DNA from: Acididesulfobacillus acetoxydans
GTDB taxonomy: Bacteria; Bacillota; Desulfitobacteriia; Desulfitobacteriales; Desulfitobacteriaceae
NCBI RefSeq assembly: GCF_902729405.1
Contig: NZ_LR746496.1
Location: 4,402,001 to 4,466,000, forward strand
Reading direction: 5' to 3'
DNA length: 64,000 bases
This document shows positions 37,914 through 56,775 of this stretch, piece after piece (positions within the stretch are counted from its first letter, which is position 1; every line of letters begins with the position of its first letter). A model generated the notes under the pieces. It ran no database searches. It was not told where the DNA came from and saw only the letters and a list, made by a program, of their open reading frames with translations. A program made the position numbers and the translations under genes.

Positions 37914-38080
37914 AAAGTGTGCGGCTTGTTAAAACTCAATGAGATTTGTTAAAAGCCCTTATCTACCGGGTGTTCGAGCGTCATTTTGCATGACGCTCTT
38001 TTTATTTATGTTATGATTTGTTACCGCTTAATGGTCACGTTGCATTACCCGTTGCATTACCTCGGGAGAGCTACGTTGAT
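37914..38080. other. Possible attachment-site flank
   Basis: It contains a tandem repeat of GTTGCATTACC (about 38038-38060), often seen close to tyrosine-integrase genes, and an A/T-rich hairpin (GCGTCATTTTGCATGACGC) at about 37979-37997. No coding frame is visible. Confidence 0.35.
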
Positions 38081-38117
38081 AGAGTAGGCCGACCTCTTAC
38101 AAGGCCAGCCCCTCAAT

Positions 38118-38150
38118 GAACGGCTCGTGCGGTTTTCCCGCAAACCGCTC
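38118..38150 (-). ncRNA. Group II intron domain V
   Basis: The minus strand folds into the short, highly conserved domain V hairpin: GAGCGGTTTGCGGG, the AAAA-type terminal loop, then CCGCACGAGCCGTTC. The catalytic triad region and bulge are in the expected places. Domain VI follows at once (38083-38112). Confidence 0.85.
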
Positions 38151-38154
38151 TACG

Positions 38155-39645
38155 TTACTTACTCTCGAACTTGTGGATACGTTCCTGCGCTCGCTCGTAC
38201 GCTGCAGCCCGCTTGGCCCAGTATATTGTGTCGCCAGCTTTGTGCTGCCGTTTGGCTAAGGCTGCCTTCTCCCTGCGCTGACGGATGATCGCTAAATACT
38301 CCTCATCTGTCAGCGACAGGCCCGTGGCTGCATCCCGAATGATTCTCTCGGCATATCGAAGTCCCGCTCCGATAAGGCGTTCATGGGTGTAGATTACGCT
38401 GAGCATGTTGGTTCTCCTGTACGTCTTGCTGCCACCACGTTGAGGTAGACGGCAACGTCGAATACGTTGACGGACATACGTGTCTAGCTTGGTCGCCTGT
38501 TGACCGAGCAAGGCTGTGGAACAGCGGCATTGGCCCCGGATGGATTTGTATACCTGTACCGCCTTGGCGGCCTGCGCCCAATATGCTGCCTTGCCCAGAA
38601 TTACCGGGTTCACTCTCTCTACCAGTGCGTCCAAGCTCAGCGTATGGGTTTTCGGAGTTTGCTCCTTGATGGCCTCTCGAAAATCCTTCACGGCATCAGG
38701 AATGCATTTGAGTCCCATACTCCAAGTCCCGTCTCGTTTCCGGAACCATCCTTGAATAGCCACTCCCAGGTATTCTAATTCGGGTATCATCCTTCCGTTT
38801 GCAGTGCGTTTCTCCATCAGGTTTAGAGTCTTCGTTTTCTCGGCTGAGAGGTCGAGTTTCAATCTTCTCATGACACCCTGCACTATAGCTTCTCCATGCT
38901 TGACGCCTTCCTCGTTCTTCGCAAAGACCAGAAAGTCATCGGCGTATCGTACAAATTGCACGCCCGCCTTGTTGAGTTCCCAGTCCAATTCATTCAGATA
39001 GATATTGGCAAGCAATGGAGAAATCACTCCACCCTGCGGAGAACCGGCCTTTGAGAAGCTTCTCACTCCATCCTCCATTACCCCAGCCTTTAGCCACTGC
39101 CAAATGAGGTCCAGAATGGAGCGGTCGGCAATCCTTCGCTTCATAATCCCCAGGAGTATTCGATGGTCTATACAGTCAAAATAACCCTTGATGTCAGCAT
39201 CGTACACCCACACATAGCCTTGTTCCATCAAATGAATGATGCGCCCGAAAGCATTGAACGCACCTTTTCCGGGACGGAAACCAACAGAGGCCGCATGAAA
39301 CTCCGTCTCGTACAGAGGTTGGAGTATGCCAGCCACCGCCTGCTGCACGACCTTGTCCCGGATAGATGGAAGACCAAGCGGACGCTTCTTGCCGTTTCGT
39401 TTCGGGATGTATCGTCTGAGTACTGGTACTGGCTTATACGTCTTGGCTTTGAGGTCGCTCAAAAGCTCTTGGAGATTCCCTTCCAGTTTGCTTTCGAAGG
39501 CAGACAGACTTATTCCGTCTACTCCGCCGGCCCCCTGATTTGCCTTCACTTTCAGCCACGCCTCATACAACCGCTGATAACTAAGCAAGCGTCCATAAAG
39601 ATTGTGCCATTTCAAGTTCGATCGTCTCCTCGCAAGCAGAACCAT
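38155..39645 (-). CDS. ltrA: Group II intron reverse transcriptase/maturase
   Basis: A 496-residue intron-encoded protein. The reverse transcriptase domain includes GVDGISLSAFE, RRYIPKRNGKKRPLGLPS, VQQAVAGILQPLYE, FRPGKGAFNA, VYDADIKGYFD (first catalytic aspartate), SPQGGVISPLLANIYL and the catalytic pair in FVRYADDFLVF. The maturase (X) domain follows, and then a basic C-terminal DNA-binding region. No HNH endonuclease zinc motif is seen. The ORF is intact, so the intron is probably mobile. Confidence 0.95.
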   Translation of the reverse strand: MVLLARRRSNLKWHNLYGRLLSYQRLYEAWLKVKANQGAGGVDGISLSAFESKLEGNLQELLSDLKAKTYKPVPVLRRYIPKRNGKKRPLGLPSIRDKVVQQAVAGILQPLYETEFHAASVGFRPGKGAFNAFGRIIHLMEQGYVWVYDADIKGYFDCIDHRILLGIMKRRIADRSILDLIWQWLKAGVMEDGVRSFSKAGSPQGGVISPLLANIYLNELDWELNKAGVQFVRYADDFLVFAKNEEGVKHGEAIVQGVMRRLKLDLSAEKTKTLNLMEKRTANGRMIPELEYLGVAIQGWFRKRDGTWSMGLKCIPDAVKDFREAIKEQTPKTHTLSLDALVERVNPVILGKAAYWAQAAKAVQVYKSIRGQCRCSTALLGQQATKLDTYVRQRIRRCRLPQRGGSKTYRRTNMLSVIYTHERLIGAGLRYAERIIRDAATGLSLTDEEYLAIIRQRREKAALAKRQHKAGDTIYWAKRAAAYERAQERIHKFESK

Positions 39646-43407: not shown

Positions 43408-45063
43408 CTACACTTTTTGTCCCTTGGGAAGCGAAATATCCCATATTCTCGGGGGTTCCGGCAATTTGAGTGCTGAAAAAATACCCGTTTGCTCTTGGGT
43501 TAATTCTGTCCTTTGAAAGACTTTCCCGTCCGTCGATTCCCACTCGACGAGATAAATTTTCTCCAGTTCGAAACGAAGGTTGGCCCAGGTTTGTTGAGTC
43601 TCTACTTCTGCCAGGCGTACCAGGAGCAAAGCCAGCCAACACAGCAGGACATGGGCACAGATCCGATCGTCTTTTCGGTGGTAAACAGGCCGTAGCTCCA
43701 GAGTCGTTTTGAGCGTGCGAAAAGCCCGCTCCACTTCCCAAAGCTGTTTGAAGCCCAAGGTGATATCCTCTATCGAGAGGGTGTCATCCGAGGTGCGGAT
43801 AAGGTATTTCCCGTCCAGCCTTTCCGCGGCTTTGACCGCTTTCTGGTTAATCCTAAGGTTGCCTTTAGCATCGATTTGCAAATATCGCTTGTAGACGATA
43901 TGGCTGTAGAGGGCACAGTGGGCTTTGGTGTGCGCTTCTCCGTCCAGCTCCTTCAGCTTCGCGAGCTTCTGCTTCAGCTTCTCCAGGTGCTTGGTGCGGG
44001 TATGGGCATCACGCTTGGCTTCCGCAGGGTTACGGACCAGAACGTAGCGGATGCGGGCCTCACCGTGGCCGACAACGACTTCTTTCGCCTCCAGATTCTC
44101 TTGAAGCGTGCGAAACCTTCCGGGATGGGAGAGGGCCTCCTCGACTTCGGGCTTACCGGCTCTAAGACGTTCTCCAGCGATGTAGTGGCCCCCGGTCCTT
44201 TGCAGAATCCGCAAGTTCTCCTCGGAGGAAAAACCCCTATCCATCACACTCACGACCCGCCCCAACTTCCAACCCGCCAGATCCCGCTTGACTTCCGGGA
44301 TAACCGACATATCGGAGGTATTGCCGGGCCAGACCCAAGAGCGAATCGGGATCCCGTCCCGTGTGACCGCCAGGCCGATCACAATTTGGGGCAAATCGGG
44401 CCGGCTGTCCTTTGAGTGACCCAGCGCCTTTAAGTCCTGTTCCTCATCGTCCCACGCGTCCATTTCAAAGTAAGTCGAGGTGGTATCGAAGAACAGGAGA
44501 TCGACTTCAAGATAGAACAAGTCCGCTACGGCATAAAACACCTCTCGCTCAACGTCTTCCTGGGATTCCAAGAGGAAATCCATCGCGCGATAGCAGTGCT
44601 GAACCTCCACGTTCGCAAGGCCGGGAATGACTACCTTTTCGGGCACCCATTTCTCCAATTGCAGCTTGCTCAAAGGTGCCAAAGCCCGGTTAGCCACCAT
44701 CGCGAACAGAGCGCGTTCCACCTCCGTGCGATACTCGCGCTCTTTCAAGCGGCGCTTCAAAATGCTATCGATTCCGAGTTTCCGCCAGAGCTGATCCAGA
44801 AACCAGGCACCGCCCAGCGGGCGACAGGAGAGGAGCTCCGGTTTCGGGGCCTCCACCGGATCGAGCGGTTCCCCGAGGAAACGCCGGATACTGCGTTCCA
44901 GCCGGCGAAGGGACTCCATATCCAACCGATCCAAACGTCCGAAATTAAAAAGGACATTCGCCTGCGGAGAGCCGGTTTCCGGATTACGAACGTTATGAGC
45001 TAACTGAACGTACTTAACCACACTATTATCTTTGTTCTTACGAGACGTCATACGTATATACAT
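43408..45063 (-). CDS. IS1634 family transposase
   Basis: A 551-residue DDE transposase of the IS1634 group (IS4 superfamily). Seen are LLFFDTTSTYFE (first aspartate), LPQIVIGLAVTRDGIPI, VWPGNTSDMSVI, VVSVMDRGFSSEENL (second aspartate), HYIAGERLR, DGKYLIRTSDDTLS, and LWEVERAFRTLKTTLELRPVYHR with the final glutamate and the YREK-like signature. It is a full-length, intact gene. The element ends were not resolved; nearby GTGTACCTACAC (43403) and GTGTGCCTACAC (45130) resemble each other in both flanks. Confidence 0.93.
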   Translation of the reverse strand: MYIRMTSRKNKDNSVVKYVQLAHNVRNPETGSPQANVLFNFGRLDRLDMESLRRLERSIRRFLGEPLDPVEAPKPELLSCRPLGGAWFLDQLWRKLGIDSILKRRLKEREYRTEVERALFAMVANRALAPLSKLQLEKWVPEKVVIPGLANVEVQHCYRAMDFLLESQEDVEREVFYAVADLFYLEVDLLFFDTTSTYFEMDAWDDEEQDLKALGHSKDSRPDLPQIVIGLAVTRDGIPIRSWVWPGNTSDMSVIPEVKRDLAGWKLGRVVSVMDRGFSSEENLRILQRTGGHYIAGERLRAGKPEVEEALSHPGRFRTLQENLEAKEVVVGHGEARIRYVLVRNPAEAKRDAHTRTKHLEKLKQKLAKLKELDGEAHTKAHCALYSHIVYKRYLQIDAKGNLRINQKAVKAAERLDGKYLIRTSDDTLSIEDITLGFKQLWEVERAFRTLKTTLELRPVYHRKDDRICAHVLLCWLALLLVRLAEVETQQTWANLRFELEKIYLVEWESTDGKVFQRTELTQEQTGIFSALKLPEPPRIWDISLPKGQKV

Positions 45064-46219: not shown

Positions 46220-47098
46220 CTAGGAATAGCTCTTTGCATGTGCGCCATAAATAAGCGTAATCCCGCCAGCTACCACCAACATCCCCAAAATCTGAGCCAT
46301 ATTGATCCTTTCGTGTAACCACCAGGCACTCGTAACCATGGCTATAATCGGTGTGATTAAATGAACAACCCGGACCAACCAAGTTGGCAATCCATCCAAC
46401 GAGCGATAATAACACCGGTACTGGATGACCTGAAAAATAATGCTCGTGAACACCAACACCCAAATTAACATGCCAGCCCGCGGAAATGCTCCTAACTCCC
46501 CCGTCCACGCGGCCCCGCTTAGGAGGAGAATAAGAGACATACCAGAATTAAAATAGGCCACTATCATATTTTCTACCTGACCCAGCCTATGTTTAATGAT
46601 CTCAGCATTAACTGCCACTAAAAAAGCACTGCCAAGAAATAAGATGTTGCCGCCGGAGCCAAGGCGAAATCTTTGCCAGGAGATTTGCAAAACCAGAGTA
46701 ACACCCACTAGCATGGTCCCCATACCTGCCCACTCCAAACGACGCAACTTTTGCTTCCACAAAAGGTAGCCAATTATGAGACTGAACAGCAAATCACCCC
46801 GCAACAGGATGGCGGCATTGACGGGTGAACTAAGATCTAGCCCCCAATTCTGCAACAACCTCAAGGTAGTACCCAAGACACCCACTAAATACAGCTCCGG
46901 ATAACGCTTACCGGCTGACAAAACCTGTCGGCCTTCTCGTCGCACTAACAGAATAGCTAGAAGCGTAAGATGCGTTCCACCCAGTACGATCAACATGAAC
47001 AGGATAACCGACATTCCAGAGAAGCAGATCTTCGCTAGGCTGAGTAAAACTCCCACCAGAGTTGCGGAAACAATTCCGTTAATCATCGCAGTTTTCAT
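46220..47098 (-). CDS. EamA/DMT-family permease
   Basis: A 292-residue inner-membrane protein with ten predicted helices in two EamA repeats. The first repeat contains NWGLDLSSPVNAAILLRGDLLFSLIIG and LEWAGMGTMLVGVTLVL; the second contains PTWLVRVVHLITPIIAMVTSAWWL and QILGMLVVAGGITLIYG. It follows the Pyl-mttB gene by 276 bp on the same strand. In other organisms a permease gene of a different kind (mttP) occupies this place, so uptake of trimethylamine or a related amine is a fair guess, but EamA proteins also export. It ends in TAG with a TAA nine codons later. Confidence 0.8.
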   Translation of the reverse strand: MKTAMINGIVSATLVGVLLSLAKICFSGMSVILFMLIVLGGTHLTLLAILLVRREGRQVLSAGKRYPELYLVGVLGTTLRLLQNWGLDLSSPVNAAILLRGDLLFSLIIGYLLWKQKLRRLEWAGMGTMLVGVTLVLQISWQRFRLGSGGNILFLGSAFLVAVNAEIIKHRLGQVENMIVAYFNSGMSLILLLSGAAWTGELGAFPRAGMLIWVLVFTSIIFQVIQYRCYYRSLDGLPTWLVRVVHLITPIIAMVTSAWWLHERINMAQILGMLVVAGGITLIYGAHAKSYS

Positions 47099-47374
47099 GT
47101 CCCCGAGGCCGCCTCTTTCTTATCCCGCCTTTTCCACGAGGGCCAGTTCAGCCTATGGCCTTTTCAGCAGGCTTTAGCCTGACCTGCGACTTTCAGTCAC
47201 AATGAAACCCACCGTCTTCAGACTGTGGTGAGTTTAGTGACATAGGGAGAGATGCTACCAAACTGCAAATCTCCCTATGTTGTATTGATCACTTTGTAAC
47301 ATTAATCCTGTTGAGCAGAAAAGCTGCTCTTTTTAGACCCGATACAGGGAGGAGGATAGTATGGTCATCTCTCA
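47099..47374 (-). promoter_or_regulatory. mttB-permease spacer with hairpins
   Basis: On the minus strand there are two hairpins: GAGCAG/CTGCTC (47313-47329; its T run is on the plus strand) and CATAGGGAGA/TCTCCCTATG (47240-47279). At 47189-47202 lies CAGTCACAATGA, which matches one half of the AGTCACAATGACT operator sites upstream of the two sigma-54 promoters of this module. No convincing -24/-12 element was found here. Confidence 0.4.
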
Positions 47375-48847
47375 TTATTTCTTAATACCATACTCTACCT
47401 CAGTTTCCTCTACAATGGCCCGTAATTGTGCAACAACTTTATCCGGAAGAGGCTCTGGCCTATGGTTTTCCAGAATCGAAATTGCTTCGGCATAGGCTCT
47501 TTCTGTAAAATCTTTGCCACCTTCCGCGAGCCAGTTTTCCCGCATGCGTCGATCGATTAGTTTACTTTGGGACTGTGTCCGCATATGTGTAAATGTGTGA
47601 TCTTGACTGATGAAGTTGCCGGCGGTACCTACCTCCTTAACAACGTCCACTGCCAAGGTCTCATCGGAAACCCTAATCCCTCTAACCGCTTGTTTAACCA
47701 TCCTGGCCATCTCGTTATCCATCAACATCTGAGCATAATCAAATGTGATGCCAAGTTCCAGCATACCCGCCCCATAGATGAGGTTAGCGCCGGCCAGGGC
47801 AGTCAATAAGGCCGTTAACGTAAACTCGTGCGCAGCTTGAGCATCCGGCACTTTACTATCTGCCTACCCACCGGCCACCCAGCTGGGCAGCAAGTAATAT
47901 TGAGCCAGTTTAGCCACTCCAGCATTGATCATGCCAAGTTCAGGCGAACCAACAGGTGCTGTGGCAGTTCGCATGTCCATAATCGTCGTAGAACTCCCAT
48001 AAAGTACGGGGGCTCCTTTACAGGTGAGTTGACTTAACACAATAGAGCCAAGAACCTCTGCATTGTGCGTAACAAGGCTCCCGGCTAGGGTGATGGGTGC
48101 TGTGGCACCAGACATAGCCATGGACAGCATGTTGACGGCAATTCCCGCCCTTGCCCCTTCAATAATAACCTCCGCAGCATGATCAACAAGTTGCAATGGG
48201 CTGGTAGGACAAATATTACATGAGAAAATCGGCCGTTCCCGAAGTTTTTCTTCCCCACCGACGATCGCCGCCGCCATCTTTAAAACCTTCTTGAAGTTGC
48301 GTCCACCTTCAACCCCGATAAATACATGCTTGGTGGTATTATTAAAGATAACTTCAGCATTATGGACCACTGCTACTTTTGCCGGCACATCATGAGGAGC
48401 CACCGGTCTTAATATGGCATCCATTTCGTCCATCGCATCACAGAACCGAGTAATATTCGCTACGTCCTGCTTCGTAGTAGGCCTATAATCTCTTGTGTAA
48501 GGGTCAATAATGGAGATCCCCTCACCAAAATTAATGAACCCTACCCTTTTCCCGTCCAGCACTATGTCATTTTTGGGATTTCTCCCGGCTAGCAGTAGAG
48601 TTCTGGGAGCAGAGCGAATAGCTTCCTCTACCACGTACTGTGGGATTTTTACAACACCCGTCTCGAAATCAACCCGAGCTCCGCCTTTGGCAAAGATCTC
48701 CAACGCTTCCTTGCAGCGCACTTTAAGCCCCGTGTGCTCGAGAACCTCCAGAGTGGCACAGTGAATCGCGTACAGCTCCTCCTGGGAAAATACATTGAGC
48801 CCAAACCCTGCTAACTCAGCCACACCTGCTTGCGTTGCAGTTCTCAT
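47375..48847 (-). CDS. mttB: Trimethylamine methyltransferase MttB with pyrrolysine (TAG)
   Basis: One 490-residue protein if the in-frame TAG at 47864-47866 is read as pyrrolysine (residue 328). The start is ATG 48847, six bases after GGAGGTG. The upstream part ends [11 protein letters not shown]; the downstream part, in the same frame, begins [20 protein letters not shown]. This is the MttB context, and length and amber position agree with known MttB (about 495 residues, Pyl near 334). It transfers a methyl from trimethylamine to a corrinoid protein, with the Pyl ring binding the amine. The gene ends in TAA. The pyl genes lie directly upstream. Its usual partner mttC survives only as a stump at 45888, so the corrinoid protein at 56143 or one elsewhere must serve it. 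Confidence 0.95.
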
Positions 48848-48971
48848 ACCTTTCACCTCCATCTTAGAAGATTTGAATTTGGAATAAGACCCTGAGCTTT
48901 GCTCCCAACCACCACCCCCTCCCAAAGTCTCCTTTTACATTTCTCTGGCTTACCGGGAACTCGTTATACAC

Positions 48972-49316
48972 TCATCGTCTCCGCACATCAGCCTCTGTCG
49001 TAAGATCGGAACCATAATGGGGTGTAAATACACTTTGAGAGTATTTCACCAGCTTCCATTGCGGTATCCGGCATTGAGTACAGGTATCGAAAAACCACTT
49101 ATTTCGTAGCCACCGCGCTACACGACTCCTCTTGGAGTTGTGTACGATTATGACATGATCGCAATGGGTTGTTATTTCGGCATATTCACCTTTCTCTACC
49201 ATAGATTTAATTCCATGCAGGGTTCCTGAGTGGGAAGGCCAGAGCTTTAATTTGTGCAAAAGCCGAAAGAGATCGACTCTTTTGCGAAAATATCTTTTAA
49301 CCGGCTCACTGCTCAT
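48972..49316 (-). CDS. pylSn: Pyrrolysyl-tRNA synthetase N-terminal protein PylSn
   Basis: A 114-residue protein starting at ATG 49316 (GAGGGGG precedes). It matches the tRNA-Pyl-binding N-terminal domain that bacteria encode separately: VKRYFRKRVDLFRLLHKLKLWPSHSGTLHGI, then HCDHVIIVHNSKRSRVARWLRNK, and the zinc-site cysteines in FDTCTQCRIP. It holds the T-arm/variable-loop side of tRNA-Pyl so that the separate catalytic subunit (52691) can charge it. It lies between pylC and mttB. It ends in TGA. Confidence 0.93.
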   Translation of the reverse strand: MSSEPVKRYFRKRVDLFRLLHKLKLWPSHSGTLHGIKSMVEKGEYAEITTHCDHVIIVHNSKRSRVARWLRNKWFFDTCTQCRIPQWKLVKYSQSVFTPHYGSDLTTEADVRRR

Positions 49317-49384
49317 TTTTAGTCCCCCTCTCGTTTCATCCTCGCTTTGAGGGCCGTGGGCACCTTTACTGCTCACAAAGCCCA

Positions 49385-50575
49385 CTAGTCCGACTCGTAC
49401 CCAGTGGATACCTCCGCATCGTCAGGCGTCAAATCAAGGTGGTACTCCAGCCCAAAATGTCTCTTAATATTATGCAGAGTTTGGCTGCGTTTAGTTTCTA
49501 CTTCCACCCGGTTCGCTTCGGTGAAGATTAAGGTCGCTACCCAGGATGACCGGCCAGGCCGATAGTTAGTTAAAGCCACATCTGCTCCCCAAAAGCCGGA
49601 TATAACTTGCAGCGGTCCGACTGTAGCCATCATGTGTTCCCCCAGGCTCTCCATCTTTCCCTCAGTCACCTTCACCTGTTCCAACACCACCGTGCGCTGG
49701 GCATCAACATTTGGTTGGTTCGGCAGCCTGCTTTCCACGAATACGTCCTTGATATGTTCCAGCATATTAATTCCCGTGGAATGCCACACCGTGACAGGAG
49801 TTTGACTTGGCAAGCGTGCATCAATTTCCAGTATGCGCAAAGATCCCCCATGCTCAATTACTTCAATGTCCATGATTCCAGTGAGGTTCAACATATGCGC
49901 TATCTGGGCGGCTATCGTACGCAATTGGGCTTGAAATCCGGGCCCTAAGCCAGCCGGAGCCCATACCCGTTTGCAGTCGAAATGGGCATCCATCTCCAAT
50001 TCCGTCACCTGATAGCTTATCACTTCGCCCCCGCAACCCATGACTTCCAAAGAGTAAGAAGGCCCGGACAGATATTCTTGAATCACCCAGTTGTTCGTGT
50101 GACCAGAACGTTCCATAAATTTGGCCAAGTCTACCTTTGAGTTGATTTTTAGGACACCTTGGCTGCCACTGGCTCCCGAGGGTTTAACAATGAGCGGCGG
50201 TTTAGCCATTGGCCAGTAGAGTGGTGTCGGAATGCCGCTTTCCTGGAAAAGGCAATCAGAAGCCAGTTTAGAGGAAGAGACTGCATACGCTTCTGAATCA
50301 TATGCCATCGGTACGTCTACCGCACAAGCTGTAGCTTGAATCTGGAGCAGCGCAGCTTTATTTTCAACAGCCGGCAACACCAAATCGGAACCCCGCAATG
50401 TCCGTTTTAGTTGATCTCTTGCGGTCAGCACATCCAGGTTAACAAACTCGTCGCAAATTCCTGCGGCCGGTACTGAACAGTCTTTATCCACCAGCACGGT
50501 GTGCCAGCCTATTTGGCGCGCCAAATAGGCTGCCTCGAGTCCTTGTAGCTTACCCCCCACGATCACAACTTTCAT
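49385..50575 (-). CDS. pylC: 3-methylornithine-lysine ligase PylC
   Basis: An ATP-grasp ligase of 396 residues that joins 3-methylornithine to the side-chain amine of lysine, the second step of pyrrolysine synthesis. The N-terminal Rossmann-type start is MKVVIVGGKLQGLEAAYLAR; the ATP-grasp part has PLIVKPSGASGSQGVLKI and GIMDIEVIEHGGSLRILEIDARLPSQTPVTVW, where the metal-binding acidic residues lie. I start it at ATG 50575, two bases after the pylB stop. It ends in TAG, backed by TGA after three more codons. Similar in length to known PylC. Confidence 0.95.
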   Translation of the reverse strand: MKVVIVGGKLQGLEAAYLARQIGWHTVLVDKDCSVPAAGICDEFVNLDVLTARDQLKRTLRGSDLVLPAVENKAALLQIQATACAVDVPMAYDSEAYAVSSSKLASDCLFQESGIPTPLYWPMAKPPLIVKPSGASGSQGVLKINSKVDLAKFMERSGHTNNWVIQEYLSGPSYSLEVMGCGGEVISYQVTELEMDAHFDCKRVWAPAGLGPGFQAQLRTIAAQIAHMLNLTGIMDIEVIEHGGSLRILEIDARLPSQTPVTVWHSTGINMLEHIKDVFVESRLPNQPNVDAQRTVVLEQVKVTEGKMESLGEHMMATVGPLQVISGFWGADVALTNYRPGRSSWVATLIFTEANRVEVETKRSQTLHNIKRHFGLEYHLDLTPDDAEVSTGYESD

Positions 50576-50577
50576 TA

Positions 50578-51684
50578 CTACCACTCACCGTCTATAAAAT
50601 TCTTCGGGTCGGCTCTTTTCTGGTTTTCCAGCCATTCTCGGTACTCTGCACGAGTAGCTGCTTTAAGTTCCATGGCCTCCAGAACCTCCGCCACTCCAGC
50701 CACAGTACGATAACCATCATCTATATCCTTACTATGCTGAGCTACGCCAGCTAATCCGGCATGAGGTGGAATTAATGAAGTAACCACATTAGCTCCTGCC
50801 GCTAGCCGAGCAGCCAAGCCATCAATTCCGTCCACATCTAAAGATGCTGGAATCAGTTTATCAGGAAACACTAGGCGTAACACCGCGATCACCGTCAGTT
50901 CCAATTGGCGATTTGGCGATGGAATATTTTCCAATGGAATCCCTCTCTGAGGAACAAAACTCATTACCCGCACCTGACGTGCTCCCAGGGCCCGCATGTT
51001 CTCTATCGCCGCCGCAATGTCCTCCTGCGTTTCTCCAACCCCCAGTAGAAGCCCTTCTTCGACCAATAGTCCGGCCCTCACAGCCTGATATTTACTTAAG
51101 AGCCGCTCAGCGAAACTTTGGTCCAGCCGCAGTTGCGCAAATAACCGTTGATTATAAGTTTCCTGGTAACAAGCATACCAGTCGGCTCCGGCTTGCGCGA
51201 AATCCTGGATGGTCGTCTCGGAAATCACCCCGGGAGATATCATGACCGGCAGTCCATCGGTCTCCTGTTTAATCTGTTTAACCAATTTAAAGAGATCTGC
51301 CAAACCCTGTCCGCTCCGATAAAAGGGATCTTCACCCATGGTAAGGTCAACCAGATGCACTCCTGATTTCAGCAAACCCAGAACTGCTGCGTGAATTTCT
51401 GCCTGACTCTTTCTGTAGCGCGGAGCCAACCCGTTGGCACTCCGATAGGCGCAAAACGTGCAAGAATTTCTGCACCAAGTGGAAAAGTAAATGAAGCCAT
51501 ATAAGAAGATCTTCTTGTAGAAATATCTATCACGTAAACCGCAAGCTGTATCATACAGACTCTGCAGATCCTTTTTATCAGTCAATCTCAGTAGAGTAAG
51601 AATTTCTGCCCTTCCCAAGTGTTCCAGGTTAGTAGCTTTCTGCAGAATTCGTTTGACATCACTCCGTCTGGTTTCGCTGTCCAT
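50578..51684 (-). CDS. pylB: 3-methylornithine synthase PylB (radical SAM)
   Basis: A radical SAM mutase of 368 residues that rearranges lysine to 3-methylornithine. The [4Fe-4S] ligands are Cys71, Cys75 and Cys78 in FSTWCRNSCTFCAYR. Further PylB features are VDLTMGEDPFYRSGQG and the SAM-binding QRGIPLENIPSPN stretch. A good ribosome site (GGAGGGA) precedes the ATG. It follows tRNA-Pyl and precedes pylC. The stop is a tandem TAG-TAA-TGA in frame, so amber suppression cannot extend it. Confidence 0.95.
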   Translation of the reverse strand: MDSETRRSDVKRILQKATNLEHLGRAEILTLLRLTDKKDLQSLYDTACGLRDRYFYKKIFLYGFIYFSTWCRNSCTFCAYRSANGLAPRYRKSQAEIHAAVLGLLKSGVHLVDLTMGEDPFYRSGQGLADLFKLVKQIKQETDGLPVMISPGVISETTIQDFAQAGADWYACYQETYNQRLFAQLRLDQSFAERLLSKYQAVRAGLLVEEGLLLGVGETQEDIAAAIENMRALGARQVRVMSFVPQRGIPLENIPSPNRQLELTVIAVLRLVFPDKLIPASLDVDGIDGLAARLAAGANVVTSLIPPHAGLAGVAQHSKDIDDGYRTVAGVAEVLEAMELKAATRAEYREWLENQKRADPKNFIDGEW

Positions 51685-51750
51685 CGTTCCCTCCGCTGCC
51701 CAAAGAGCTCACTGTAGAGTAAATCATTTCATAGTAGTCGCCGGATTTAA

Positions 51751-51822
51751 TGGCGGGGAGTCCGGGAGTTGCACCCGGCAACATAGATTTAGAGTCTGTG
51801 CGATCCATCCGATCAACCCCCC
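51751..51822 (-). tRNA. pylT: tRNA-Pyl (anticodon CUA)
   Basis: A 72-nt tRNA with encoded CCA that has the unusual tRNA-Pyl architecture. A 7-bp acceptor stem (GGGGGGT with ACTCCCC) is followed by only one base, a 4-bp D stem (GATC/GATC) with a 5-base loop, one base, and then a 6-bp anticodon stem with loop CTCTAAA (anticodon CTA). A 3-base variable loop and a 5-bp T stem (CCGGG/CCCGG) with a 7-base loop follow. Length and layout equal those of the Desulfitobacterium tRNA-Pyl as I remember it. The third anticodon-stem pair is a C-A mismatch. It sits between pylD and pylB in the same direction. Confidence 0.95.
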
Positions 51823-51857
51823 CCAATTGTTAAAACACGGCTCTGAGCTATCCCCCA

Positions 51858-52667
51858 TCAAGACAGGGACAGAGCCAACATTGTCCCCACGCCTATTTGC
51901 AAAGGATCGTGAACAATCCTATCTTGCAAGACTTCATAGGCACCTCCCGTCAGCCCCATGGGAATGCCTGGAGCCGCAATCGATACCTGAGGGTGCAAAT
52001 CCTTTAAGTGTAAGAACCCCCCTACTGGAGCCGCGATAAGAATGTAGCGAAAATCAGGAAATACCTCTTTTCCACCAGACACCAATTGAACACCTGCCTC
52101 ATGAAGACTGGCTGCTCTATCATGTTTAATTTCTGCCACAACAACCTTAGCACCCAGCTCCTGCAAGTCAGAGATCGCCTTACCGCCAACCTCTCCGGCA
52201 CCAATCACCAGAACCTCCTGTCCACGCAATCCGCGACCCATACAGTTCAGAGCTGTCACGTAACCGCGCGCCGTCGCCGCTGCATTATCGACCATAACCT
52301 GGTTGCCCAAATTCAGTGCAATAAATTTGCGATCGTCAGCCATAAACAGGATTGTTGCTCCCTTGTCCACTGCTTCAGCAACACCTGCAACGTCACTCTG
52401 CCTGGTAACGATAGCATTAAATCCCAGGTGGCTTAAAACTGTTCGCACGGATTGTGCAAAAAACGGAATAATCCCAGCACCGGATGTCACCGGCACCACA
52501 GCAACCAGATGACTTTGCCTGGCCGCCACGAAATCGTCAGCTGTGATCCGGGCCGCCAAACAGACCAGTTCGAGCAACCCGATTCCGATAATTTTACCCA
52601 AATTGGTATCATATTGCTCGATGTTCAGTTCTAAATCTGCTAAATCCGTCCCTGTCAGACGTGTCAT
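51858..52667 (-). CDS. pylD: Pyrrolysine synthase dehydrogenase PylD
   Basis: A 269-residue NAD-dependent dehydrogenase that oxidises 3-methylornithyl-lysine, after which the ring closes to pyrrolysine. The start is MTRLTGTDL (ATG 52667), seven bases after GAGGG; an ATG two codons earlier is too close to that site. N-terminal helical part LADLELNIEQYDTNLGKI, substrate part VAVVPVTSGAGIIPFFAQSV, and the Rossmann motif VLVIGAGEVGGKAISDL. It lies 23 bp after pylSc and ends in TGA just upstream of pylT. Confidence 0.95.
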   Translation of the reverse strand: MTRLTGTDLADLELNIEQYDTNLGKIIGIGLLELVCLAARITADDFVAARQSHLVAVVPVTSGAGIIPFFAQSVRTVLSHLGFNAIVTRQSDVAGVAEAVDKGATILFMADDRKFIALNLGNQVMVDNAAATARGYVTALNCMGRGLRGQEVLVIGAGEVGGKAISDLQELGAKVVVAEIKHDRAASLHEAGVQLVSGGKEVFPDFRYILIAAPVGGFLHLKDLHPQVSIAAPGIPMGLTGGAYEVLQDRIVHDPLQIGVGTMLALSLS

Positions 52668-52690
52668 GCTCATACCCTCACTAGTTGTTT

Positions 52691-53530
52691 CTATATATTG
52701 AGTCGGAAACCATTCCAATACGACAAACTCCGACCCACCCGTTTAATGTTACGATGCCCTTCCAGGGCCATTGCTAGCCTTTCCACGCCAATTCCCAGCC
52801 CAACCCAAGGTGTAAAGACACCCCACAAATTATCAAGGCTGTGCGGCCCATAAGCCCCTGAACTTAGCTCCAAATCTCCGCAGACAACATCAATCGTTTC
52901 ACCGTAGACTTCTGAACTATTTTTCTCTACTTTGTAATTTGTCATACCAACAGCCTTCATTACCATGCTAATTAATGCGCGCAGCCTGTTCTCCTGCTGC
53001 CCGTCGGCTACCCCCATCTCTACCAAGTTTAACATCGTAAACTCATTCAAGTGGTATTTGCCTTGCGATTCTTTACGAAAACAGGACCCAATCTCAAATA
53101 TACGCACCGGGTCACCCCACTGCCTGTATAAATCCTTCATAACGGAGTATAAATTAGGAGCTAACATGGGGCGTAAGCACTTATTGTGGTCCACCCAAAA
53201 GACCTGTTCCGCCAGAGGGGAATCATCTGTAATAGTCATCCTCTCCAGCGTACTTTTAGCGATAATGATCGGCGTGTTAACCTGGGAGAATCCCTGCCGC
53301 CGGAGGCAATCGATCAGTTTATCTCCCAATTCATTGAGCACCGGACGAGAACCCTGACCTTTATGAGCCATTAAGGCCTGCTTGTTAGCTCCCACCAGTT
53401 CACTCTCAATGCGCTGAAAAGATTGATCGCGGTCGGCTGCATCCCCAAAAGTGCGCGTAGCCAACTCCTGAACTGCCCCTAATTCCATAAGCCGCTGTTT
53501 CTGAGTTGTCGTCCACGTGATGCTCACCAT
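52691..53530 (-). CDS. pylSc: Pyrrolysyl-tRNA synthetase catalytic subunit PylSc
   Basis: A class II synthetase catalytic protein of about 279 residues that charges tRNA-Pyl with pyrrolysine. The start is ATG (53530) or the next-codon GTG (53527), after AAGGAGGG. Motif 2 is seen in FEIGSCFRKESQGKYHLNEFTMLNL, motif 3 in WVGLGIGVERLAMALEG, and the substrate pocket region in CLRPMLAPNLY. The end RSLSYWNGFRLNI is as in other PylSc. The separate PylSn supplies tRNA binding. It ends in TAG with a TGA six codons later, so it may itself be extended slightly when the suppressor is active. Confidence 0.95.
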   Translation of the reverse strand: MVSITWTTTQKQRLMELGAVQELATRTFGDAADRDQSFQRIESELVGANKQALMAHKGQGSRPVLNELGDKLIDCLRRQGFSQVNTPIIIAKSTLERMTITDDSPLAEQVFWVDHNKCLRPMLAPNLYSVMKDLYRQWGDPVRIFEIGSCFRKESQGKYHLNEFTMLNLVEMGVADGQQENRLRALISMVMKAVGMTNYKVEKNSSEVYGETIDVVCGDLELSSGAYGPHSLDNLWGVFTPWVGLGIGVERLAMALEGHRNIKRVGRSLSYWNGFRLNI

Positions 53531-53682: not shown

Positions 53683-55104
53683 TTAGGACTTCGCCTTTTC
53701 TATATAAGCCTGCAGTTCTTGGTCAGTGGCCGGATCAAGCAACGAATCAGAGGCTTCTTGCAAGATTTTCTTGTATCTGCGATTGGCTTTGCTGACTACA
53801 TCTTCGGCCCCGGCTTCTTTCCAATCGTCAAAAGACTCCCAGTCCGATATCGTCGGCGTCCAGATGGTCCGAAACTGTTCAAAGGTACTCATGTGCATTA
53901 AATAGCTTCCGTCATGTCCCACTTCTTGGATTACATCCACTGCCAGCGCTTCATCGGAGGTATCTATTCCCTGCTGAATGCGTAAAACCCGCCGGATTAA
54001 TTCTTCATCGATAATGAATTTCTCATAGGATGTTGTCATAATAGCATCCAGAACACCCAGGCACTGTACCGCCATATGAGCTCCGCTTAACATGCCCAAC
54101 AATAAACTCTGCATGGTTTCATAGCCTGCTTGAGCATCCACTACTTTGGAATGGGTAATCCCTGTCATTGTCCGGGTGGGCAAATGATAGAAATCCAAAC
54201 CCATTTGCAAATTAGCTGTATTGATCAACATAGCTTCCGGTGCACCGGCAGCATAGCTGGCTGTTTTCATGTAGGCCGAAGTGGAGGCAGTAGCGTAAAC
54301 CACCGGAGTACCAGGATTAACCATCTGCATTAAGACCAAGCCTGCCAAAATTTCAGCGTTTTGCAATACCGCTGTGCCCAGAGGGGTAACTGGCCCGCTC
54401 ACTCCCGCCATAATACAGGGAGCCAGCAAAATTACCTGATTGCGTTTGGCGTACTCAATCATGGTCTCCAAAGTTTCCGGCGCATAGCCCAAAGGGCTGA
54501 GCGAGTTAACCAACACAGCTACACAATGGTTATCGCGAAGAAATTCTGATTGCCCCATCGAAAGTTCTACCATATCAAGTTGTTCGCGGGCTTGTTTTGC
54601 ATTGGTCGTAAAGCCAATTACCGGTTTGTCTGTATATTTTAGGGTTTCATACATCATAGTCAAATACTTATCACCACGCGGCACATCACTGGGATCAACC
54701 GGAATTGTTCCAACCAGATGAACAACGTCACTGGCCTGACATAGTTTTTGGATATTAGCATAATCAGCAAGAGTAGCCTTGCGCCGGCCTTGGTCCAAGT
54801 TTTGGATATATACCGGTCCGACATTCGGCTGGATCAAGAATCCTTCGCCCACCGTTATCGAATTATCCTCATTACGGGCTCGCATCCGGAAAGTTTTGGG
54901 AGCCGTTGCTAAGGCCTGTTCGATCATTTTCTCCGTAAAGAACACCGTCTTGCCTACCACTCTGGCCCCATGCTTTTTAAATACCTCCAGGGCTTCATCG
55001 CACAGAAACCTGGCGCCCGTCTCGCGTAGAATTTTGAGCGATGCCTCATGAACGCGCGCAAAGTCTTCTTTCTTAAGAACTTCTAATCTGGAGTTTAAAG
55101 CCAT
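53683..55104 (-). CDS. mtgB: MttB-superfamily methyltransferase without pyrrolysine (MtgB type)
   Basis: A full 473-residue MttB homologue with no amber codon. Where Pyl would lie the sequence reads TRTMTGITHSKVVDAQAGYE; aligned with the Pyl-MttB (GG[13 protein letters not shown]), isoleucine takes the Pyl place. Known non-Pyl members demethylate quaternary amines (glycine betaine in MtgB, also proline betaine, carnitine and others). The betaine-type transporters upstream point to glycine betaine or a close relative. AGGAGGGAG precedes the ATG. It lies between the methyl-THF methyltransferase and pylSc genes and ends in TAA. The exact substrate is not readable from sequence. Confidence 0.88.
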   Translation of the reverse strand: MALNSRLEVLKKEDFARVHEASLKILRETGARFLCDEALEVFKKHGARVVGKTVFFTEKMIEQALATAPKTFRMRARNEDNSITVGEGFLIQPNVGPVYIQNLDQGRRKATLADYANIQKLCQASDVVHLVGTIPVDPSDVPRGDKYLTMMYETLKYTDKPVIGFTTNAKQAREQLDMVELSMGQSEFLRDNHCVAVLVNSLSPLGYAPETLETMIEYAKRNQVILLAPCIMAGVSGPVTPLGTAVLQNAEILAGLVLMQMVNPGTPVVYATASTSAYMKTASYAAGAPEAMLINTANLQMGLDFYHLPTRTMTGITHSKVVDAQAGYETMQSLLLGMLSGAHMAVQCLGVLDAIMTTSYEKFIIDEELIRRVLRIQQGIDTSDEALAVDVIQEVGHDGSYLMHMSTFEQFRTIWTPTISDWESFDDWKEAGAEDVVSKANRRYKKILQEASDSLLDPATDQELQAYIEKAKS

Positions 55105-55165: not shown

Positions 55166-55966
55166 TTATTCTGCATACAGCCCTTCACGATGAGCCTTCA
55201 GGTAATTTACACAAAACGAATCTTGCCCTAATAATGCCTTTGAAGCAGCGATCGTGCCCATCATCCCCTTGTCAGTGGGGTTCAAGATATACCCGTCCAT
55301 TCCTAAAGTCATTGTCTGGACCACGAATAGGCGATTGAGCACCTTACGATTAGGCAGGCCGTAAGAAACATTACTTAATCCGCACATAAAGTGCACCTCT
55401 GGATGGGTGGATTTAATACCTTTAATTGTCCCCAATACCTCTTCACCCGCTGTATCAACACTGCTAATCGGCTTGATCAGTGGGTCAAAATAGATATCCT
55501 CATCCGGAATCCCCTGGTTGCTTAACTTAGCATATAAGCTATCAACGACGCGCATCCGGTCGGCAGCTGTTTCCGGCATCCCCGTATCATCCATGCACAG
55601 AGCCACTAGTTTAGCTTTGTATTGCACGGCCAGCGGCAAGACGGCTTTGACCCGTTCCTTCTCATCGGTAATCGAGTTAATCATCGGTTGGCCATACTTG
55701 CACAAAGCGAGTCCGGCCGCCAAAGCCTTTGGGTTGGGGCTATCGATACACAGCGGTATCTGGACTAATTCCTGAATGGCATTGACAAGCCATTCCATAC
55801 TTTCTACTTCATTAAAAACCTGGGTGCCGCAATTAACGTCCAGATAATTAGCTCCGGAATCCACCTGCTCCTGCGCAATCTTTTTGATATACTCTGCGTC
55901 CTTGTTATCGACAGCTTCAGCGATGGCCTTACGGCTTGTATTGATCAGTTCGCCAACAATTAACAC
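55166..55966 (-). CDS. mtgA: Methyltetrahydrofolate:corrinoid methyltransferase (MtgA-like)
   Basis: A pterin-binding TIM-barrel protein of 266 residues. I start it at GTG 55966, seven bases after GGGAGG; the frame is open 11 codons further up. Seen are LIVGELINTSRKAIAEAV, GANYLDVNCGTQ, PLCIDSPNPKALAAGL, MINSITDEKERV, and the FMCGLSNVSYGLPNRKVLN segment typical of AcsE/MtgA/MtvA. It moves the methyl from the methylated corrinoid protein to tetrahydrofolate, feeding the Wood-Ljungdahl or C1 pathway. It sits between the corrinoid protein and the MtgB-type methyltransferase. Confidence 0.93.
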   Translation of the reverse strand: MLIVGELINTSRKAIAEAVDNKDAEYIKKIAQEQVDSGANYLDVNCGTQVFNEVESMEWLVNAIQELVQIPLCIDSPNPKALAAGLALCKYGQPMINSITDEKERVKAVLPLAVQYKAKLVALCMDDTGMPETAADRMRVVDSLYAKLSNQGIPDEDIYFDPLIKPISSVDTAGEEVLGTIKGIKSTHPEVHFMCGLSNVSYGLPNRKVLNRLFVVQTMTLGMDGYILNPTDKGMMGTIAASKALLGQDSFCVNYLKAHREGLYAE

Positions 55967-56010
55967 GTCTGTTCCTCCCTGCCCTTTAAGAATGTTCACA
56001 ACTGTTTAGT

Positions 56011-56145
56011 TAGAGTCCCCTGAAAAACTGCTAATTCGAAGAAATTTCGGCCAAAGATATCCAACCCAACCCGCATGAATAAAGGGTTTACCAGCGGAGG
56101 CGTTGGCTGGATGTTATAAAATACGGACTTTTTCAGGGGAATCTA
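56011..56145. repeat. 135-bp inverted-repeat element (MITE-like)
   Basis: The two ends are 21-bp inverted repeats agreeing at 18 positions (TAGA-T-CCCCTGAAAAA). The inside has no gene and contains CCCGCATGAATAAAGG, also found beside the IS1634 transposase at 45.18 kb. Size and structure fit a miniature inverted-repeat transposable element. The outermost TAG of one end is the stop codon of the corrinoid protein gene. No exact target duplication could be fixed. Confidence 0.6.
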
Positions 56146-56775
56146 TTTAAGAAACTTTCCCGCTGTATCTTTAGCCGCCATAGCGTCAGCACAATAAGCG
56201 TCTGCCCCAATTTCGTCAGCGAAGCTTTGCGAAACTGGTGCTCCGCCAATCATTATCTTTACCTGATCGCGCAATCCCTCTTCCTTCATCAGGTCGATAG
56301 TTTCCTTCATGTTTAGCATTGTTGTCGTTAGCAGGGCTGACATGCCGACCACCTGAGCATTATTCTCTTTTACCGCTGCCACGAATTTGGCTGGTGACAC
56401 ATCAACCCCGAGGTCGACAACATTAAATCCACCACTTTCCAGAATCATGACCACTAAGTTCTTGCCAATGTCATGGAGGTCGCCGCTAACGGTCCCTATC
56501 ACGATTGTCTTAGCCACGGAAACATCCTCACCGGAGATTAACGGCTTAAGGATCTTCATTCCTTCACCCAGTGCCCGTGCAGACATCATGACTTCCGGCA
56601 CAAACATTTCACCATTCTTAAACTTAGGCGAAACAATATCCATCCCCGCGAGCAAGCCATTTGTGATGATTTCCATAGGGCTAGTCCCACTATCAACCAT
56701 CTTTTGAGTTAACTCTTTAACGGAGGGGGCTGCCCCTTTGTAGACAAACTGAGCTAATTGAGCAAATTCACTCAT
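56143..56775 (-). CDS. mtgC: Corrinoid protein for methyl transfer (MtgC/MttC-like)
   Basis: A 210-residue B12 protein. The N-terminal four-helix cap (about 1-85) is followed by the Rossmann B12-binding domain with the lower-ligand histidine in GDLHDIGKNLV (Asp99, His101, Gly104), then VDLGVDVSPAKFV, GMSALLTTTMLNM and MIGGAPVSQSFADEIGADAY. It accepts the methyl from the MtgB-type (and perhaps the Pyl) methyltransferase and passes it to the MtgA-like enzyme. It is the only intact corrinoid protein in the window. It ends in TAG; beyond that the frame stays open for about 48 codons, through a MITE-like element. Confidence 0.93.
   Translation of the reverse strand: MSEFAQLAQFVYKGAAPSVKELTQKMVDSGTSPMEIITNGLLAGMDIVSPKFKNGEMFVPEVMMSARALGEGMKILKPLISGEDVSVAKTIVIGTVSGDLHDIGKNLVVMILESGGFNVVDLGVDVSPAKFVAAVKENNAQVVGMSALLTTTMLNMKETIDLMKEEGLRDQVKIMIGGAPVSQSFADEIGADAYCADAMAAKDTAGKFLK

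Follow-up and report, generated by a model that had tools for sequence, protein, structure and literature searches.

The window, that is, the whole 64,000-nucleotide stretch of DNA analysed here, belongs to the genome of Acididesulfobacillus acetoxydans (single contig, 4.52 Mb) and carries at positions 47375-53530, all on the minus strand, six pyl features and an mttB gene in the order Sc-D-T-B-C-Sn-mttB:

52691..53530, minus strand: pylSc, catalytic subunit of the pyrrolysyl-tRNA synthetase (PylRS), 279 aa, stop TAG; TIGR02367 326.5 bits (cut-off 178)
51858..52673, minus strand: pylD, 3-methylornithyl-lysine dehydrogenase; TIGR03911 208 bits (cut-off 150)
51751..51822, minus strand: pylT, tRNA-Pyl with anticodon CUA and encoded CCA; ARAGORN and covariance model R1
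50578..51684, minus strand: pylB, methylornithine synthase (radical SAM); TIGR03910 461 bits (cut-off 348)
49385..50575, minus strand: pylC, 3-methylornithine-lysine ligase (ATP-grasp), stop TAG; TIGR03909 407 bits (cut-off 248)
48972..49316, minus strand: pylSn, tRNA-binding N-terminal PylRS subunit, 114 aa; TIGR03912 116.5 bits (cut-off 51)
47375..48847, minus strand: mttB, trimethylamine:corrinoid methyltransferase with an in-frame TAG (Pyl) at codon 328; TIGR02369, TAG column, selection
47864..47866, minus strand: the TAG codon, predicted to be read as pyrrolysine

Every pyl protein, as well as MttB, lies above its NCBIfam equivalog cut-off, and these matches, together with ARAGORN and the covariance model, bear out the identities that a first-pass annotation had assigned to all seven genes. 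PylRS is split, as TIGR02367 and TIGR03912 match separate genes. The best PDB match of PylSc is the Desulfitobacterium hafniense PylSc (3dsq, E 7.5e-90), while PylB matches 3t7v (E 3e-81) and PylSn 5ud5 (E 8e-9). The likely starts are 53530 for pylSc and ATG codons at 52673 for pylD (open frame from 52718), 50575 for pylC and 49316 for pylSn. Three of the five pyl genes stop with TAG, namely pylSc (52691-52693), pylB (50575-50580, a tandem TAG TAA) and pylC (49385-49387); were these codons read as Pyl, the next TAA or TGA would lie 7, 1 and 4 codons further on, respectively. No striking TAG-stop bias emerged among pyl genes generally (19 of 54 pylSc and 24 of 81 pylB, the window included).

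The mttB frame (48847-47375) comprises 490 codons, with the TAG as codon 328 (47866-47864), and its read-through product scores 761 bits against TIGR02369, where the cut-off is 525. It aligns end to end with Methanosarcina barkeri MttB (7xcl, 7xcm), codon 328 falling on Pyl334, and the M. barkeri residues Tyr364, Gly110, Met249 and Gly372 are all conserved. The roles of the active-site residues have been described (PMC9842639); Gly110 and Tyr364 of that enzyme correspond to Gly108 and Tyr358 here. Thr111, for which a bond to the corrinoid was reported (PMC9842639), is replaced by Glu (residue 109, window 48521-48523), as it is in most of the bacterial Pyl-MttBs compared (FGEG, FGEA). Three other loci (L101, L102 and L109) have Ser where Gly110 was described as invariant.

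Upstream and in the same direction lie BCCT, OpuAC and ABC-transporter genes and genes for an ASKHA protein, a DUF1638 protein, a corrinoid protein, an MtrH-like protein and a betaine-type MttB homologue. The methyltransferase part of this neighbourhood is as follows:

53683..55104, minus strand: MttB-superfamily methyltransferase without Pyl, glycine-betaine (MtgB) type; PDB 2qne and 9yce, E ~1e-103
55166..55999, minus strand: MtrH/MtgA-like methylcorrinoid:tetrahydrofolate methyltransferase; NF005719 370 bits
56143..56775, minus strand: corrinoid protein, candidate methyl acceptor; NF047996, TIGR02370
57454..59454, minus strand: ASKHA-type protein, putative corrinoid reactivase; Pfam Hydantoinase_A/Hydant_A_N

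The first of these proteins has Ile at the Pyl column, and its gene is possibly on the same transcript as the pyl-mttB set. Homologues of the MtrH-like protein (66-67% identical) adjoin the Pyl-mttB clusters of Candidatus Formimonas warabiya DCMF (L041) and of Paradesulfitobacterium ferrireducens (L145), which suggests that tetrahydrofolate receives the methyl group from it. The corrinoid protein scores 219 bits with NF047996, under the cut-off of 370, and 215.4 bits with TIGR02370, barely above the cut-off of 215.3. Homologues of the putative reactivase (60-70%) adjoin other mttB-corrinoid gene pairs of the same genome. Since many corrinoid proteins of this kind are encoded in the genome, the partner of the Pyl MttB is uncertain: it may be the protein at 56143-56775 or one from elsewhere.

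This neighbourhood gives rise to a variant of the main reading that differs in substrate only, in which Pyl would be inserted as proposed and the enzyme would demethylate some other methylated amine instead of trimethylamine, with the betaine-type corrinoid protein and MtrH of the adjacent operon as its partners. The BCCT and OpuAC transporters and the betaine-type methyltransferase fit such a role, and no dedicated mttC was found beside mttB. The variant nevertheless appears unlikely in view of an MttB score far above the TIGR02369 equivalog cut-off and of the full-length alignment with M. barkeri MttB, active-site residues included; trimethylamine is the likelier substrate.

The mttB frame is open on either side of its single in-frame TAG. 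Sixty MttB-superfamily rows were aligned, the window's own copies among them: every one of the 27 rows with at least 47% identity (25 once the window's own copies are removed) has TAG in the exact column, and all 33 rows below 39% lack it there. Selection was assessed against the nearest relative, L032 (85% identical), separately before and after the TAG: nonsynonymous divergence (pN) is 0.09 before it and 0.10 after, synonymous sites are saturated (pS 0.74-0.80), and both genes have the TAG. With synonymous sites saturated and nonsynonymous divergence near 0.1 on both sides, the part of mttB downstream of the TAG is under purifying selection. The proposal of the first-pass annotation that two halves in the same frame are joined by a Pyl codon thus stands, given the conserved TAG column, the equal selection on both sides and the read-through score. 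By contrast, a pseudogene or split gene, in which translation really ends at the TAG and the 158-aa frame beginning at GTG 47851 is a separate or dead gene, is very improbable: that GTG does lie 12 bases past the TAG codon, but the TAG sits in the exact column of 25 relatives, a complete pyl set adjoins, and a dead downstream half is excluded by pN/pS against L032 together with the retained TAG.

Rfam PYLIS_3 (RF02510) matches just after the mttB TAG. The same model also matches, over its cut-off, two TAG-free mttB homologues of the same genome, and RNA folding after the TAG is no better than in shuffles (z 0.30). The match reflects mttB homology rather than a recoding element, and we rejected it as independent evidence of recoding; earlier work found no common structure in the mttB region after the TAG (PMC3639795).

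ARAGORN identifies 51822-51751 as tRNA-Pyl(CTA). A bacterial tRNA-Pyl covariance model, built from 32 genes of other genomes with the window tRNA left out, gives it 83.8 bits (E 3e-16), so that the covariance-model check suggested in the first pass returned a match, although a few pairs of the tRNA are non-standard against the model; the model also finds the L032 tRNA-Pyl overlooked by ARAGORN. With the general Rfam tRNA model the gene reaches 20.8 bits, under the cut-off of 29, and general tRNA finders could therefore miss it. The idea that near-cognate tRNAs suppress the TAG or that some other amino acid is inserted there, while the pyl genes decay, draws on the divergence of pylD (33-49% identity to homologues), but merits hardly any credence, as all pyl genes are open and above their cut-offs, tRNA-Pyl is intact and conforms to the model, and PylSc aligns throughout with its D. 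hafniense counterpart. Direct support exists for the identities of the genes, for a conserved tRNA and TAG, and for selection on both sides of the TAG, and the locus is almost certainly a complete bacterial pyrrolysine cassette with a split PylRS, serving a Pyl MttB.

Genome-wide reassignment of TAG was considered and rejected, since RF1 is present and 15 of 45 long ORFs of the window (an approximate ORF count) end in TAG. A search for genes with an in-frame TAG, covering the methyltransferase families of the genome, found 11 MttB-superfamily genes, only one of them TAG-bearing, and neither MtmB nor MtbB. With both of these enzymes missing and a single Pyl methyltransferase, trimethylamine is probably demethylated only as far as dimethylamine, the predicted end product.

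The first-pass annotation had placed all genes consecutively on the minus strand in one operon. The consecutive arrangement is plain; a single transcript is likely, judging from the common strand and intergenic gaps of 2 to 152 nt. Promoter-like and terminator-like sites of the region are not commoner than in shuffles. A 16-nt inverted repeat with a 9-nt spacer and no T run follows mttB (47240-47280), a possible transcript end.

As noted in the first pass, the tRNA gene lies inside the cluster, between pylD and pylB, and the order Sc-D-T-B-C-Sn differs from the archaeal pylTSBCD. It also matches neither of the usual bacterial orders, pylTScBCDSn and pylSnScBCD (PMC3941956), and most other loci compared here read T-Sc-B-C-D-Sn. 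The order is unusual, yet not unique: L098 has an identical one, and L032, whose contig begins inside pylD so that pylSc lies beyond its reach, shows D-T-B-C-Sn-mttB. Two further loci (L036 and L060) have B-C-Sn-Sc-D-T, a cyclic permutation of the window order. Because the L098 PylB is distant (50%), the order it shares with the window may be old or convergent. A single genome scan yielded 126 PylB relatives. In the PylB tree the window groups with L032 (100/99), and both belong to a set of 15 Bacillota rows that has weak support (88/92) and does not include Desulfosporosinus.

In the genus-mate G001, neither PylSn nor PylSc gave a match above the cut-off. When it was compared as an empty site, no flanking synteny that would mark an insertion event was found around the cassette. 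A plasmid origin was likewise considered and dropped, as the plasmid collection held no PylB match at E 1e-60. G001, which has no pyl cassette, carries two genes with 75-76% identity to an EamA-family transporter of the window (46220-47098) and a DNA copy 85% identical to the DDE transposase downstream of the cassette (43408-45063); a group II intron RNA domain (RF00029) adjoins a reverse transcriptase/maturase gene at 38079-39645.

The system resembles the D. hafniense type (pylTScBCDSn; PMC3941956) in its gene families, with a split PylRS, PylB, PylC, PylD, a 72-nt tRNA-Pyl and a Pyl-mttB, and differs from it in that pylT lies within the cluster and pylSn comes immediately after pylC. P. ferrireducens (L034/L145) and DCMF (PMC6778437) carry Pyl-mttB genes 64-70% identical to that of the window, with the MtrH-like homologues nearby and PylB in the same 15-row set, but, unlike in the window, no pylSc, pylD or pylT turned up within ~10 kb of their pylB. 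For DCMF 23 Pyl methyltransferases were reported (PMC6778437), against the one found here. As in Methanosarcina (pylTSBCD with mttB/mttC), where the MttB aligns end to end and Pyl occupies the same place, the same biochemistry is expected; the archaeal PylS, however, is one chain, whereas that of the window is split, and the gene order is different. Methanogens also use MtbB and MtmB, both absent from this genome, and transfer the methyl group to coenzyme M, while the system described here would transfer it to tetrahydrofolate.

The steps from pyrrolysine synthesis through tRNA charging and insertion to the choice of substrate and the path of the methyl group are inferred from known Pyl biology. 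PylB, PylC and PylD would convert two lysines into pyrrolysine, with which PylSc and PylSn, as a split synthetase, would charge tRNA-Pyl(CUA). The charged tRNA would compete with release factor 1 at the mttB UAG, so that the whole MttB chain would be made, with Pyl as residue 328. From trimethylamine, this enzyme would take a single methyl group and load it onto a corrinoid protein, with the product of 56143-56775 as the probable acceptor and a corrinoid protein from elsewhere as the alternative; the MtrH-like protein would then pass the methyl on to tetrahydrofolate. It is tempting to speculate, albeit tentatively and with the odds rather against it, that pylT is cut out of the interior of a polycistronic mRNA of a cassette cyclically rearranged in a Bacillota sub-lineage, so that tRNA-Pyl, the synthetase and the single target mttB would rise together with methylamines, TAG being otherwise an ordinary stop.

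There are repeated earlier reports of bacterial Pyl systems whose PylRS is split (PMC3941956, PMC6778437, PMC7593587, PMC8318568), and the reading proposed here is supported but ordinary: a split-PylRS cassette adjoining a glycine-betaine-type methyltransferase operon. It also carries a warning for annotation, in that standard gene callers split mttB and tRNA-Pyl falls under the Rfam tRNA cut-off. The locus extends the list of bacteria whose code has 22 amino acids by one well-supported genome, and its compact seven-gene set of ~6 kb with one known target gene could help to test how bacteria tolerate a suppressor tRNA when TAG terminates roughly one in three long ORFs of the window.
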